A stretch of DNA of 37,704 nucleotides, taken from positions 1-37,704 of the forward strand of contig JAITHD010000096.1 of assembly GCA_031280155.1 (NCBI GenBank). Reading direction: 5' to 3'. The notes under the pieces are model-generated. The model saw only the letters and a list, made by a program, of their open reading frames with translations, did not search any database and was not told the DNA's origin. This stretch comes from Treponema sp. (GTDB taxonomy: Bacteria; Spirochaetota; Spirochaetia; Treponematales; Breznakiellaceae). Positions 6,975-37,100 of this stretch are shown piece after piece; the stretch's first letter is position 1; every line of letters begins with the position of its first letter. The translations under genes were made by a program, and so were the position numbers.

Positions 6975-7156
6975 TTATCCGGTTCGCCGTAAAACCTCTA
7001 CCTTTAAGCATGGGGTGTTACGGCGCAACGAAAACGTGTAGTAGAAAACCCGCTTAGAAAAAAAAAGCGGGAAAGAAATAGAAATCTTGGGGAGTAAGCC
7101 GGGCAGCCAAAATAAGCCCTAAGCCCTAAAAAATTTTTAGTCCGGAGGTAGCTGCC
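6975..7156 (+). mobile_element. IS200/IS605-like remnant, copy A
   Basis: The left-end motif TTTATCCGGTTCGCCGTAAA is also found, inverted, at the 27770 and 37100 ends. An inner CGCAACGAAAACGT segment is shared with the 36839 copy. The segment with CGCTTAG, an A-run, GCGGGAA and GAAATCTT is shared with copies at 12211 and 14816. The right end is GGTAGCTGCC, a variant of GGTAGCTGAC. The central hairpin and the TnpB tail are deleted. It occupies the whole spacer between the PilZ-like gene and the next outer-membrane protein gene. Confidence 0.65.
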
Positions 7157-8824
7157 ATGAAAAGAATCATAATTATTCTCTGCTTGGGGCTGTGCGGGAT
7201 TGTCAGGGGATTTGCCGGACCAGCCCAGAAAGTAGCGTACCCAGGAGATTGGGTCTATGATGCGCTTACGGCTTTGTCTCTGGAACAGGGACGTATCTTT
7301 TTTACCAATTCGTCTCTGACTTATGCCCAGATTGAGCTTATGCTTGCTGAAATTGACGAAGCCTCTCTTTCTCAAAGCGGTCTGGCGCTGTACGATCAGA
7401 TTTATGCGTACCTTAATGAATCCTCTTTTTTGTCATTTCAATCTGATATCATAGATATCAATGTAGATACTGCTTTGCAGCCGGAACTGTATTTTAAAAC
7501 CAATGAAACCTTTGATTGGGAATACAAACATGGGGATAGACTGCGGTTTTTTACACTTCCCGCAGATATCTCGGTATCTTCTTACCTTATGCTTCAATCG
7601 GATTTATATATTGGAGAAAACCGCAGACTCTCAAAGGTCCATGACAATTACTTTAATTTTCCTTTTGATAAGCATATAGACGGGGTTGAGAGTTTTGATA
7701 CAGATTTTCCTAAACGGGCGTATTTGAGCGCAGGTCTGCCTTTGGGGAAATATTCGGGGATTAATCTCAGGATAGGCGTTGGGGATAACACCTATGGACG
7801 GACAAAAACTGGGAGCATTATTATTTCTGATACCATGAAAGGAATAAATTACGCTCAACTGAGTCTTTATTCGCCTTGGATCAAATACACTACTGAAATC
7901 ATGGAACTTGAAGTAAATAAATATCTCTATCTTCACTATTTCCAAATGCGGCTGTTTAACCGCTTGTCTCTTGGAATTGTTGAAGGAGTCATGGTTAATG
8001 CGCCGTTTGAACTCCGCTATCTTAATCCGATGATGATTTTTCACGGCTTTACGGCTTGGTCTGATTATGGGAAATACAATGAAGAGACAGGACAAGAAGG
8101 GTTAAAAAGCGGGGATAGCCGGGTTGGTTCTTATGGAGGGGTTATACTGGATTGGAGTCCTTGGAAATATTTTCGGATTTACGGGCTTTTTGGGATGACT
8201 GAATTCCAAGGTCCCGGGGAGGTTGGTTCAGATTCAACCGGACCTAATGCCTTTGCCTTTCAGCTTGGTTCTGAGACGTATATTCCTGTTTCCTCTGGAC
8301 ATTGGCGCTTTGGGTTAGAAGGGGTTTACACATATCCTTATATGTATATTCTTGGGCATAAAAATTGGTCTTTTTATCGGGAAGCCAATGAGACAAGTAA
8401 TCCTTGGAGCCGTGATTGGGTAGGAAATCCGTTTGGTCCTGATTCGATTGTCGGTACGATTTGGGCCGGCTATCAGGATACAAGACTATGGGCTGTTTCG
8501 CTTTCATTTCTTTTTGCCGCCCAGGGAGAAAATTCAGAAACTGCTGTTTTTGATTTGCCGGATAACGAATATTATGCTAACACTCCAGAAGAAAACGCTT
8601 CAGTTACTCCCACAGGCATCCCTGCATACACCTATTTGATAAATCTTAATGGTAAGTGGTCTGCCTCCAGTTGGCTTCACTTCACGCTGCGGACAAGTTA
8701 CAAGATCATCTATAACTTTGAGCATATCCAAGAACGTTTAGAACAGGGCTTTGAAATCAGTTTTTCAATCCAATTCACCCCAAAAGGGTTATGGAGCTGG
8801 AAAGCGCCTCAGCCTATACGATAA
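7157..8824 (+). CDS. Large outer-membrane beta-barrel protein, possibly Wzi-like
   Basis: The product has 555 residues with a signal peptide (MKRIIIILCLGLCG, cleavage near GFAGPA). A short helical domain follows (VYDALTALSLEQGRIFF, YAQIELMLAEID). The long remainder is rich in aromatic/glycine alternating strands such as NRLSLGIVEGVMVNAPFELRYLNPMMIFHGF. The helical start followed by a barrel, and the LNPMM-type block, resemble capsule-assembly Wzi-like and related treponemal barrel families; this is a fold-level guess. The SD GGAGG (7144-7148) lies eight bases from ATG and sits inside the right end of element copy A. A strong hairpin with a T-run at 8948-9010 probably ends the transcript. Confidence 0.6.
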   Translation: MKRIIIILCLGLCGIVRGFAGPAQKVAYPGDWVYDALTALSLEQGRIFFTNSSLTYAQIELMLAEIDEASLSQSGLALYDQIYAYLNESSFLSFQSDIIDINVDTALQPELYFKTNETFDWEYKHGDRLRFFTLPADISVSSYLMLQSDLYIGENRRLSKVHDNYFNFPFDKHIDGVESFDTDFPKRAYLSAGLPLGKYSGINLRIGVGDNTYGRTKTGSIIISDTMKGINYAQLSLYSPWIKYTTEIMELEVNKYLYLHYFQMRLFNRLSLGIVEGVMVNAPFELRYLNPMMIFHGFTAWSDYGKYNEETGQEGLKSGDSRVGSYGGVILDWSPWKYFRIYGLFGMTEFQGPGEVGSDSTGPNAFAFQLGSETYIPVSSGHWRFGLEGVYTYPYMYILGHKNWSFYREANETSNPWSRDWVGNPFGPDSIVGTIWAGYQDTRLWAVSLSFLFAAQGENSETAVFDLPDNEYYANTPEENASVTPTGIPAYTYLINLNGKWSASSWLHFTLRTSYKIIYNFEHIQERLEQGFEISFSIQFTPKGLWSWKAPQPIR

Positions 8825-10063: not shown

Positions 10064-10840
10064 CTACCAGAATTTCCGGTTGGAAAACGGCGGTGTTACT
10101 TTTACATCTTCACCGGAAGGTTCAATAACGTAGAAACCCTGTTTTAAGGCGTATGTCTTTACCTCTTCACCGGCGACCGCAGCGGCTAGTGATCCATAAA
10201 ACTTCCGGTCGTCTCCGTGCAGATCCGCGTAAGCCCGGATTTTTTCCATACGTTTAATGTGTTCGTCAATATTGTCGGTCTTGAGATGTATCTTCACCTC
10301 AACCGCCATAGCCTCGCCGCCGTTTTCCAGAAGCGCGTCTATCTCCGCGTGTATACGATGTTCCTTATCGTCGAGATTTACGTTCTCGCTCAATTTACTG
10401 AAATTAAAGCCGTATTTTTTGAATTTTTCCTTCAAATTGGGGACAAGGGTATGTTCAGCGAATTCCCCGAACCGGTTGCCCAGATGTCCGACCGCTTTTT
10501 GAAGCTCTGCGATGTTTTTCTCTGTGTTTACCTGAAACGCCTCTGTACTTGCCCGAAGCTCTGCGATGTTCTTTTCTGTGCTTGCCCGAAACGCCTCTGT
10601 GTTTACCTGAAACGCCTCTGTACTTGCCCGAAGCTCTGTGATGTTCTTTTCTGTGCTTGCCCGAAGCTCTGTGATGTTCTTTTCTGTGCTTGCCCGAAGC
10701 TCTGCGATGTTCTTTTCTGTGCTTGCCTGAAACGCCGCAAGTCCTTTTGCGTTCTCTTCCTGAATTTTTTCGGTTCTGTCTAAGGTTTCCCAAATACGCT
10801 TGTACAGCGGGGACTTTCGTTTCTTCCTTCCTATAGTCAT
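10064..10840 (-). CDS. Coiled-coil protein with PD-(D/E)XK nuclease-like C-terminus (DUF3782-like)
   Basis: The frame is open from 10930, but GGAG five bases before the ATG at 10840 makes that the likely start, giving 258 residues. The basic N-terminus (IGRKKRKSPLYKRIWETL) leads into a long coiled coil. It is built from near-identical 11-residue units (ASTEKNIAELR, ASTEKNITELR, ASTEAFQVNTE). The C-terminal 130 residues contain HAEIDALLENGGEAMAVEVK, where the E..D...EVK spacing fits a PD-(D/E)XK catalytic core. This layout is that of DUF3782-type proteins common near mobile DNA. The nuclease activity and biological role are not established. Confidence 0.65.
   Translation of the reverse strand: MTIGRKKRKSPLYKRIWETLDRTEKIQEENAKGLAAFQASTEKNIAELRASTEKNITELRASTEKNITELRASTEAFQVNTEAFRASTEKNIAELRASTEAFQVNTEKNIAELQKAVGHLGNRFGEFAEHTLVPNLKEKFKKYGFNFSKLSENVNLDDKEHRIHAEIDALLENGGEAMAVEVKIHLKTDNIDEHIKRMEKIRAYADLHGDDRKFYGSLAAAVAGEEVKTYALKQGFYVIEPSGEDVKVTPPFSNRKFW
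10510..10735 (-). repeat. 33-bp coding tandem repeats (coiled-coil units)
   Basis: About six units of 33 bases, or a multiple of it, encode the STEKN(I)xELRA heptad-like pattern in the DUF3782-like gene. Identity between units is high at DNA level, so copy number could change by slippage or recombination without breaking the frame. Confidence 0.7.
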
Positions 10841-10930
10841 AACGTCTCCACTTCTAAAAATATGCCGTTTCAGAGGGCCGGTCAAGATATTCCACCGTAA
10901 GTCCGCACTTGCCGTCTTTGCTCCCCGCAA

Positions 10931-11114: not shown

Positions 11115-11278
11115 TGGACTTTACCCTGTTAGGTAGAGAGAATTAAGCGGTCAAGTTCCATGGAAATCCGTTATGCCCACAATAGTCAAGAGCCTAATGT
11201 AAACGGATTCGGTTATAATACGCCTCGATGCACATGAATAACGGCTGCCGAACTTCGGCTTCCGGGTGTTTACCGCCC
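11115..11278 (-). repeat. IS3-family transposase tail fragment, copy 1
   Basis: The minus strand encodes IEAYYNRIRLH, a stop, then ALDYCGHNGFPWNLTA and a stop: the C-terminus of an IS3/IS150-type integrase-fold transposase. A second copy with about 85-90% identity lies at 29993-30158, with matching boundaries on both sides. The fragment joins the broken relB gene at its 3' side. Confidence 0.75.
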
Positions 11279-11871: not shown

Positions 11872-12228
11872 ATGAATAACAATCATAAAGACCAGCCTTG
11901 GATTTTTAACCAAGCTATTGAGGCGGAACAAACCGCTCCTGGGGTGAGCCGTAAAGTGCTTGCCTATTGCGACGCTCTGATGTGCGTGGAAAACCATTTT
12001 GAAACCGGCGCGGCCGGCGCGCTTCACCATCACCCCCATACCCAGATTACCTATGTAGCTGAAGGCAGATTCCGCTTTACTATTGGAGATGAAACCCATG
12101 AAGTAACCAAAGGAGACGCCCTTTTAAAACAAAACGCCGTTATACATGGGTGCGAATGTCTTGAAAAAGGCGTATTAATCGATTTTTTCACGCCTCTTAG
12201 ACAAGATTTTTTATCGAAACTGCCGTAA
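11872..12228 (+). CDS. Small cupin-domain protein
   Basis: The 118-residue protein is a single cupin barrel. The first cupin motif is ALHHHPHTQITYVAEGRFRF (metal-binding His cluster and trailing Glu/Gly) and the second is GDALLKQNAVIHGCECLEKG. Stand-alone cupins of this kind serve as small metal-dependent enzymes or sugar/ligand sensors; the substrate is not deducible. AAGGA lies about five bases before ATG. The gene ends in CTG-CCG-TAA, which is also the left-end motif of element copy B, so its last residues (about LSKLP) may derive from that insertion. Confidence 0.8.
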   Translation: MNNNHKDQPWIFNQAIEAEQTAPGVSRKVLAYCDALMCVENHFETGAAGALHHHPHTQITYVAEGRFRFTIGDETHEVTKGDALLKQNAVIHGCECLEKGVLIDFFTPLRQDFLSKLP

Positions 12229-12483
12229 AGCCTTATAAAAAAACCCCTTTGGCATTTAGGCAAAAAGACTAGGTGATAATGAGCATATTGAAAGACCTAC
12301 CCACGCAGCCTGGGGAAGTAACGTCTATGGATATGGCGGCTCTGGCTCTTGGCAACAAGCGTGAAACCGCCGTAGAAATACCTGCTTAGAAAAAAAAAGC
12401 GGGAAGGAAGTAGAAATCTTAGGGAACAAGCCGGGCAATCGACCCAAGCCCTAGAAAAAACCTTTAGGCAGGGGGCATCTGAC
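12211..12483 (+). mobile_element. IS200/IS605-like remnant, copy B
   Basis: The left end (TTATCGAAACTGCCGTAAAG, then CCTTATA and CCCCTTT) is followed by GACCTACCC and a hairpin whose reverse strand reads GACGTTACTTCCC. Next come a TnpB C-terminal tail, an A-run with GCGGG, the GAAATCTTAGGGAACAAGCC segment, and a right end (CCTTTAGGCAGGGGGCATCT then GAC). Orientation follows the tnpB tail. The transposase body is missing. Confidence 0.75.
12279..12389 (+). pseudogene. TnpB C-terminal remnant in copy B
   Basis: The 36-codon frame contains EVTSMDMAALALGN then KRETAVEIPA and a stop. This resembles the EVTxxxxEALA-type C-terminus of IS605 OrfB/TnpB, beyond the catalytic domain. Copy C at 14893-14988 keeps the same tail with six substitutions. 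It begins with ATG by chance or by frame reuse; no independent function is implied. Confidence 0.6.
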
Positions 12484-14733: not shown

Positions 14734-14892
14734 AATCTATAAGTTTATCAAAAACCGTATAAATATGCAATGGAGCAAAACCCTCACTTGAAAGGATTCC
14801 CTGCTTGGGATAAACAGTATCGAAACCGCTGTAAAACCTTATAGAAAAACCCCTTTGACATATAGGCAAAGACTAGGTGATAATGAGCATAA

Positions 14893-14988
14893 GACCTACC
14901 CACAGGGCGTGGGGAAGTAACGTCTATGGATATGGAGGCTCCGGCTCTTGGAAACAGGAGTGAAACCGCCGTAGAAATACCCGCTTAG
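14893..14988 (+). pseudogene. TnpB C-terminal remnant in copy C
   Basis: After a TAA at 14890 the frame reads DLPTGRGEVTSMDMEAPALG, then NRSETAVEIPA and a stop. It is the same tail as in copy B. Upstream the frame is closed, so it cannot be expressed as part of a transposase. Confidence 0.6.
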
Positions 14989-15024
14989 AAAAAAGAAAAA
15001 AGAAAAAAGAAAAAAAAGAAAAGA
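14986..15024 (+). repeat. A-rich simple repeat inside copy C
   Basis: Several units of A(4-8)G follow the tnpB-tail stop. The equivalent spot in copies A and B is a single run of nine A. The tract therefore looks expanded by slippage. Confidence 0.7.
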
Positions 15025-15109
15025 GCGGGAAGAAAGCTGAAATCTTAGGGAACAAGCCGGGCAGCCGACCCAAGCCCTAGAAAAAATCTTTAGGCAGGGG
15101 GAGCTGACG

Positions 15110-15736
15110 ATTCAATACTTACTATTTGATCTGGACAATACCTTGTATTCAGCCCGGTATAGGCTGGAGGATAATGTATATCAACGTATAGCCGAATTTA
15201 TCGCCGCCTATCTGGGGGTTTCGCCGGAAGAGGGTATGCGCCAGCGGTATGAACAGATTGGTCAGTACGGCACTGCCTTGGAATGGCTGAGAGCTGAAAA
15301 GGGGTTTATGGATATTGAAGCCTACTACGCCGCGATTCACCCCCCAAACGAAGCGGATTCTTTGCCCCAAGACCCTAAACTCAGAACGTTTCTTGAATCC
15401 CTTCATCTGCCTCTGGGGATACTTACCAATTCTCCCAGAGAACATGCGGATCGAATTCTTGATAAACTAGGGGTTTCCGATCTGTTTACTCATGTCTTTG
15501 ACATACGCTGGAATCAATTCAGGGGAAAACCCGCGCCGGAAGCGTTCCGCCGGGTTCTTGAGGTCTTAGGGACTCGTCCGGAAACAACGCTTTTTATTGA
15601 CGACATGCCCCGCTGCGTGGAGGGCTACTGTGGAATACGCGGAAAAGGACTGCTTCTGGACGAAGGCGGCATATACCCTGACTATCCGGGGGACCGAATC
15701 CGAACGCTGCCGGAACTCAGGTTTTTTTTATCATAA
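15110..15736 (+). CDS. HAD-superfamily pyrimidine 5'-nucleotidase-like phosphatase with lost start codon
   Basis: The protein is a SDT1/YjjG-like HAD phosphatase. Motif I LLFDLDNTLYSA contains the nucleophile and acid Asp, motif II is GILTNSP, a Lys follows in FRGKPAPEAF (motif III), and motif IV is TLFIDDMPRC. A helical cap lies between motifs I and II. The first ordinary start in frame is TTG 15143, which would delete motif I. The frame stays open upstream, through ATT 15110, ACG 15107 and CTG 15104. GGGGGAG (15097-15103), part of element copy C, sits six bases before ATT. I give ATT 15110 as the most plausible rare start; the gene may instead be silenced. Its stop codon lies in the left end of copy D. 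Confidence 0.7.
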   Translation: MQYLLFDLDNTLYSARYRLEDNVYQRIAEFIAAYLGVSPEEGMRQRYEQIGQYGTALEWLRAEKGFMDIEAYYAAIHPPNEADSLPQDPKLRTFLESLHLPLGILTNSPREHADRILDKLGVSDLFTHVFDIRWNQFRGKPAPEAFRRVLEVLGTRPETTLFIDDMPRCVEGYCGIRGKGLLLDEGGIYPDYPGDRIRTLPELRFFLS

Positions 15737-29992: not shown

Positions 29993-30158
29993 TGGACTTT
30001 ACCCCGTTAGGTAGAGAGAGTTAAGCGGACAAGTTCCATTGAAACCCGTTAGCCCCCACAATAGTCAAGAGCCGAATGTAAACGGATTCGGTTATAATAC
30101 GCCTCGATGTACAATGAATAGCAACTGCCGAACTTCGGCTTCCGGGTGTTTGCCGCCC
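29993..30158 (-). repeat. IS3-family transposase tail fragment, copy 2
   Basis: The minus strand encodes YIEAYYNRIRLHSALDYCG, with the frame then shifting to NGFQWNLSA and a stop. It pairs with copy 1 at 11115-11278. It lies between the phage-like fragment and the IS1595-like fragment. Confidence 0.75.
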
Positions 30159-36838: not shown

Positions 36839-37100
36839 GTCAGCTACCCCATGCCTAAGGCATGGGCTTGAGGCTTGTTCCGGTTGCCCGGTGTACTACT
36901 ACCAGTAGTACACCGGTAGTAGTGATGCTCCCCGGTCTTACGGTCTCTCCATAGACGTTACTTACCCACGCCGCGTGGGTAGGTCTATTCGACTTTTTTA
37001 CCATACCACAAAATAGGGAGAGCGGTCAAGGATGTTGTTACAAAACTTTTTCGTTGCGCCTTATGCCTAAAGGCAGGGGTTTTACGGCAAACCGGATAAC
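36839..37100 (-). mobile_element. IS200/IS605-like remnant, copy F
   Basis: Minus-strand order: left end GTTATCCGGTTTGCCGTAAA, then TGCCTTTAGGCATAAGGCGC. GACCTACCCACGCGGCGTGG follows with GTAAGTAACGTCT (hairpin), a 13-bp perfect hairpin at 36888-36916, and the right end CCCATGCCTTAGGCATGGGG with TAGCTGAC. The TnpB tail is reduced to a few codons after GTAACGTCTATGGA. Confidence 0.75.
36888..36916. repeat. 13-bp perfect hairpin inside copy F
   Basis: CCGGTGTACTACT (36888-36900), loop ACC, AGTAGTACACCGG (36904-36916). It is not shared by other copies at sequence level, though copy E has its own 9-bp hairpin in the comparable place. Confidence 0.8.

Follow-up and report, generated by a model that had tools for sequence, protein, structure and literature searches.

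The window analyzed here is a 37,704-nt stretch of DNA (contig C155) from a 2.48-Mb MAG of Treponema sp., which comprises 269 contigs, is 82% complete and, to judge from MAG names, represents a probable termite-gut spirochaete. On its plus strand, positions 15110-15736 encode a HAD-family hydrolase, whose superfamily membership is clear from a PF00702 match (5e-20). The gene is pyrimidine 5'-nucleotidase-like: it matched TIGR01993 (pyrimidine 5'-nucleotidase) at 1.1e-34, with a score of 119.8 bits that lies below the equivalog cut-off of 142.9. The coding sequence of motif I (LLFDLDNTLY) begins at 15119, and the frame is open back to a TGA at 15038-15040. Neither ATG nor GTG nor TTG occurs in frame between this TGA and motif I, in agreement with an earlier note on this DNA, which had reported none between the right end of an inserted element and motif I. 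The substitutes that it listed (CTG at 15104, ACG at 15107 and ATT at 15110) are also present as described, together with the Shine-Dalgarno (SD)-like GGGGGAG at 15097-15103, six bases before the ATT. A mechanical ORF caller started the gene at TTG 15143, inside motif I, and so produced a 197-aa protein without the catalytic DxD.

To see what the start used to be, we examined HAD homologues, which were present in 35 of 40 relatives when matches of any strength were counted. The best 25 (loci L031-L055, the window's own copy included) were covered over nearly their full length, and 22 genes, namely the window's copy and 21 from relatives with 42-70% identity, were aligned at motif I. All 21 relatives carry a start codon just before motif I; in most of them it is an ATG immediately preceding the codon that aligns with ATT 15110. 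Its absence in the window therefore goes beyond chance. The pairing ATG ATT is frequent (for example, ATG ATT CGG TAT in G004 and ATG ATT AAA TAC in G002), so that ATT 15110-15112 appears to be the ancestral second codon. A few homologues start some codons further upstream, and one (L055) uses GTG. Many of the homologues L032-L055 also have a TATAAT- or TATGAT-like box some 5 nt upstream of their ATG. This suggests that HAD transcription may be leaderless across the order; judging by the position of the box, the ancestral HAD gene probably had no leader or hardly any. In the window, a weak match to such a promoter (TTGAAA at 14788-14793, a 15-nt spacer and GATAAA at 14809-14814, plus strand) presumably represents the native promoter remnant, and its GATAAA box ends 4 nt before the old ATG.

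Between this remnant and the gene lies a 288-nt repeat, copy C (14821-15108, plus strand), the boundaries of which were set independently, from the alignment of the other copies. When the flanks of copy C are joined, they read ..GATAAACAGTAT | GATTCAATAC.., which restores ATG ATT in frame; in a longer form, ..GGGATAAACAGTAT|GATTCAATACTTACTATTT.. gives ATG ATT CAA TAC in the HAD frame. Therefore, copy C was inserted between the AT and the G of the ATG, with A14819 and T14820 on its left and G15109 on its right, and the element-free allele should read ..CAGTATGATTCAATAC. The AT at 14819-14820 is also the end of the TTTAT-like target (here AGTAT), as judged from the left-flank consensus and the homologues. 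Because the target by itself predicts this AT, independent support is limited to the native G, the preserved frame and the agreement with the homologues. At the old start position there is now a hybrid ACG (15107-15109), of which AC belongs to the element and G is native. Most copies of the element terminate in GCTGAC, whose near-invariant final base is C 15108 here, and a base-call error there is therefore unlikely.

The earlier note had suggested that an element insertion erased the HAD start. The homologues and the joined flanks uphold the loss by insertion; the codon, however, was split rather than erased. The comparison with insertion-free relatives that it had recommended places the ATG exactly where copy C ends here, and thus confirms, as far as sequences go, the insertion origin of the lost start. 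In the genus relatives G002, G004 and G005, the 500 bases inspected ahead of the HAD gene contained no element. An empty allele with the same neighbours was not found among the relatives, and no dapA match occurred near their HAD genes.

The aligned copies share a common architecture. The left end, C-CGG-TTTGCC or C-GAAACCGCC..GTAAAACC, is followed by a promoter-like TTGAC..TATACT or TTGACA..GATAAT, then by the core, an A/G-rich stretch and the right end ..GGGG-AGCTGAC. The promoter-like pair scores at least 9 of 12 in 69 of 86 copies, and in copy C it takes the form of a sigma-70-type promoter, TTGACA (14855-14860), an 18-nt spacer and GATAAT (14879-14884), on the plus strand. The core contains a remnant of the TnpB C-terminus, DLPTGRGEVTSMDMEAPALGNRSETAVEIPA* (14893-14988, plus strand), which overlaps the expected guide-RNA (omegaRNA) scaffold. 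Its in-frame part corresponds to the last 31 TnpB codons (14893-14985); the C-terminus of a tnpB fragment (L098) that itself matches PF07282 is 74% identical to it (45 bits). In addition, another locus, L095, has the same left end, promoter included, immediately ahead of its tnpB frame (L095/L022 match), and the element promoter is therefore likely to be the tnpB promoter. Given this shared left end and the TnpB C-terminus in the core, we identify the element, from its sequence, as a TnpB transposon that has lost most of tnpB.

The element is thus a core-deleted, PATE-like derivative within the IS200/IS605 superfamily. It retains TnpB coding sequence, causes no target duplication and is inserted 3' of a short fixed motif; hairpin-forming stretches were seen at both ends, by eye only. 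As in PATEs of IS605 type, the copies are transposase-free and core-deleted and have no terminal inverted repeats, and partly deleted tnpB copies share their ends. The position of the right end next to the flank fits that of a predicted TnpB omegaRNA gene. TnpB fragments elsewhere in the genome match PF12323, PF01385 and PF07282, and as far as seen all are broken or cut by contig ends, so that no intact tnpB was seen in the MAG. Likewise, a search for the Y1 transposase (PF01797) gave no match in the MAG, which is 82% complete. The host family does have Y1 proteins, including one in the genus member G002, and none is linked to these element ends. The tnpB of L095 (G000:C226) is nearly full-length and frameshifted, and it carries the motifs GLDMS, VVENL and HNRDKNAAIN, which we take to be those of an active nuclease rather than of a nuclease-dead regulator.

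We also searched for the element across the genome. The covariance model gave 104 matches at E values up to 0.01 and 91 at 1e-5, corresponding to about 90 copies, whereas five genus relatives gave 2 to 7 matches each. Treponema/Spirochaetaceae MAGs (isolates Pc512_bin91 and bin53) contain closely related elements. The core pattern was absent from viral contigs, and viral carriers were rejected. Matches to the pattern in Bacteroidales and in a Chromatiales MAG are probably due to chance: in BLAST against the element, the Chromatiales sequence matched only the 20 nt of the pattern and the Bacteroidales sequences did not match at all. Among 50 copies, the left flank is TTTAT in most (positions -4 to -1: T in 40, T in 45, A in 41 and T in 46), the right flanks are variable, and target duplication is absent.

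Two further copies lie on the plus strand of the window. Copy A (6979-7156; TTTAT|CCGG.. ..GGAGGTAGCTGCC) is a shorter relative without the tnpB 3' part that directly adjoins the ATG of ORF 7157-8824, and its right end places GGAGG, the equivalent of the GGGGGAG in copy C, at SD distance from this ATG. Copy B (12216-12483; TTTAT|CGAAAC.. ..CATCTGAC) faces the 3' end of a convergent asd-like gene and is among the few antisense copies. A weak minus-strand match to the covariance model (35 bits) at 36915-36987 is perhaps a decayed copy. Another repeat in the window, about 165 nt long and unrelated to the element, occurs at 11115-11278 and 29993-30158 with about 90% identity between the sites, and part of it seems to lie beside another copy of the element (L011). 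In addition, 33-nt in-frame direct repeats at 10520-10731, in the minus-strand ORF 10064-10930, encode a coiled-coil-like ASTEKNIAELR unit.

Next, we counted orientations for the 74 copies whose right end could be resolved and which lie no more than 300 nt from a gene. Sixty-four point in sense into a gene start and 10 are antisense (binomial p 9e-11); the genes were called by a simple codon-usage script, and the antisense count may wrongly include one copy or more, C4:9482 among them. The gap between the right end and the start codon has a median of 37 nt and is 20 nt or less in 17 cases. Of the genes downstream of the 64 sense copies, 61 start with ATG, one with GTG and two with TTG, the last two being HAD and a gene 158 nt from its copy. 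In 41 upstream regions, TTTAT was not enriched in sense (14 occurrences, against 20 in the other orientation), and a target preference was rejected as the cause of the bias. The likelier cause is thus selection or biased insertion rather than the supply of targets. With some 90 miniature elements of TnpB origin pointing six to one into gene starts, promoters and leaders may have been rewired wholesale, and gene finders would mis-start genes with such insertions, as at HAD, where the catalytic motif is lost.

How, then, might the HAD gene work now? We propose that a non-autonomous TnpB-derived transposon inserted directly 3' of AGTAT, probably by a single-strand, IS200/IS605-type route, so that the start became AT...288 nt...G with the junction read as ACG. 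The ancestral start would have been near-leaderless, with a -10 box just before the ATG, and the insertion would have moved this native promoter away. In its place, the element would supply three things: a promoter, the SD-like sequence and, between them, a structured leader. The leader would measure about 215 nt and consist mostly of the old tnpB 3' end and the element right end. Supply of an SD by this element family is plausible in view of copy A, whose GGAGG adjoins an ATG; the SD-like sequence before the ATT of HAD would be a putative further case. The GGGGGAG at HAD is G-rich and non-canonical, and part of the right end is paired in the predicted leader fold, which is not exceptional (z -1.25). 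The likeliest substitute start would be the ATT, presumably a weak one, and its use would cost the protein only the original Met. AUU starts are known from infC and pcnB in E. coli, and initiation at AUU is inefficient in the known cases. Taken as a whole, we hold this account with considerable confidence; its firm parts are what the element is, where it ends, how many copies there are and how they are oriented, the loss of the ATG as judged by comparison, and the intact state of the gene. If it is correct, then nature has provided here a clean example of a transposon that cuts a start codon in two and brings its own promoter and ribosome-binding site, and the locus tests how a gene survives the loss of its ATG.

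The same insertion could nevertheless have silenced HAD effectively: the element would drive transcription but useful translation would not follow, and the event would be too recent for decay to show. This is a serious possibility to which we give somewhat less than an even chance, considering that a canonical start is absent from the frame, that neither AUU nor ACG generally serves well as a start, and that a second, distant HAD match in the genome (C172, 29% identity) may or may not overlap in function. However, decay was rejected for this gene: its 204 aligned codons contain no stops, frameshifts or excess changes, only two departures from near-invariant columns were found (0-8 in the others), and the branch of 0.22 compares with 0.25 in the nearest relative, at a dN/dS of 0.15. 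This leaves either translation from the ATT or a recent silencing, much as the earlier note had set a rare start with an element-supplied SD beside silencing. The terminal branch of copy C (0.076 per site, against a median of 0.067, a rough guide to age as the source copy is unknown) hints that the insertion is not brand new, and a comparable load of neutral changes would be expected to leave some two stop codons in HAD, again as a rough estimate. Since the element also puts a promoter and an SD-like sequence back in place, we lean slightly towards weak use of the ATT rather than a silent gene. Translation from the hybrid ACG or from CTG 15104 seems improbable: both codons are near-cognate and the ACG occupies the ancestral start position, but GGAG is only 3 nt from the ACG and 0 nt from the CTG, too short for an SD-led start, whereas it is 6 nt from the ATT.

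Other explanations concern the element itself. Two loci might have been wrongly joined through a repeat of about 90 copies in a short-read MAG, in which several contigs end inside copies. We rejected such a misassembly as very unlikely, since copy C is distinctive, sharing at most a 73-nt exact stretch with any other fetched copy, and the joined flanks yield an ATG in frame, as expected, an outcome that would be rare if the join were random. The 64:10 sense bias and the conserved promoter pair and hairpins might instead suggest that the copies are dedicated regulatory leaders, a riboswitch-like family kept for control and not transposon debris. We consider this unlikely, because the core is TnpB coding sequence, the target flank is fixed, and the conservation may reflect common descent; covariation in the core hairpin is weak (-0.58 of -23.9 kcal/mol) and was not accepted as proof of RNA function. 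A search of the element against Rfam gave no match over threshold and no credible one below it, and together with the TnpB coding core this led us to reject a known RNA family (riboswitch, HEARO or intron). A self-splicing intron that would restore the ATG was rejected as improbable as well, as no intron family matched and the site is what one expects of transposon ends at a fixed target. Finally, it is conceivable, but would be very surprising, that the element-derived leaders of about 60 genes are TnpB-type guide-RNA scaffolds, so that the 5' ends of mRNAs double as guides and TnpB acts in trans; TnpB, which is missing or broken in the MAG, would then process or regulate these mRNAs.

Among known systems, the transposon favoured here closely resembles the palindrome-associated transposable elements (PATEs) of Haloquadratum walsbyi, a group in which some members descend from IS605-type transposons that lost their core (PMC3119063). 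Both are transposase-free, lack terminal inverted repeats, reach high copy numbers and use a short target sequence. In contrast to PATEs, our element occurs in a spirochaete, retains the tnpB promoter and 3' end, is strongly oriented into gene starts and in one copy splits an ATG. It also shares a TnpB coding remnant, and a right-end RNA region beside the flank, with the IS200/IS605 TnpB elements (ISDra2 and the IS1341-like, tnpB-only elements; PMC8612924). ISDra2 inserts 3' of TTGAT without duplication (PMC8612924), and the T-rich TTTAT plays the same part here; the present element, however, has only 288 nt, and neither intact tnpB nor Y1 tnpA was found in the MAG. 'Mobile promoters', as generally understood (cf. 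PMC8049555), are insertion sequences and repeats that likewise carry an outward promoter reaching a downstream gene, but the element described here provides dozens of genes in a single genome with a leader and an SD-like end as well. With regard to the start codon, cvfC1 of S. aureus has an AUU start with a strong SD (PMC13009471), and HAD resembles this gene, as well as infC and pcnB, in having ATT as a candidate start behind an SD. Unlike in those genes, the predicted ATT start of HAD would have been forced by an insertion, and its G-rich SD would come from the end of a transposon.
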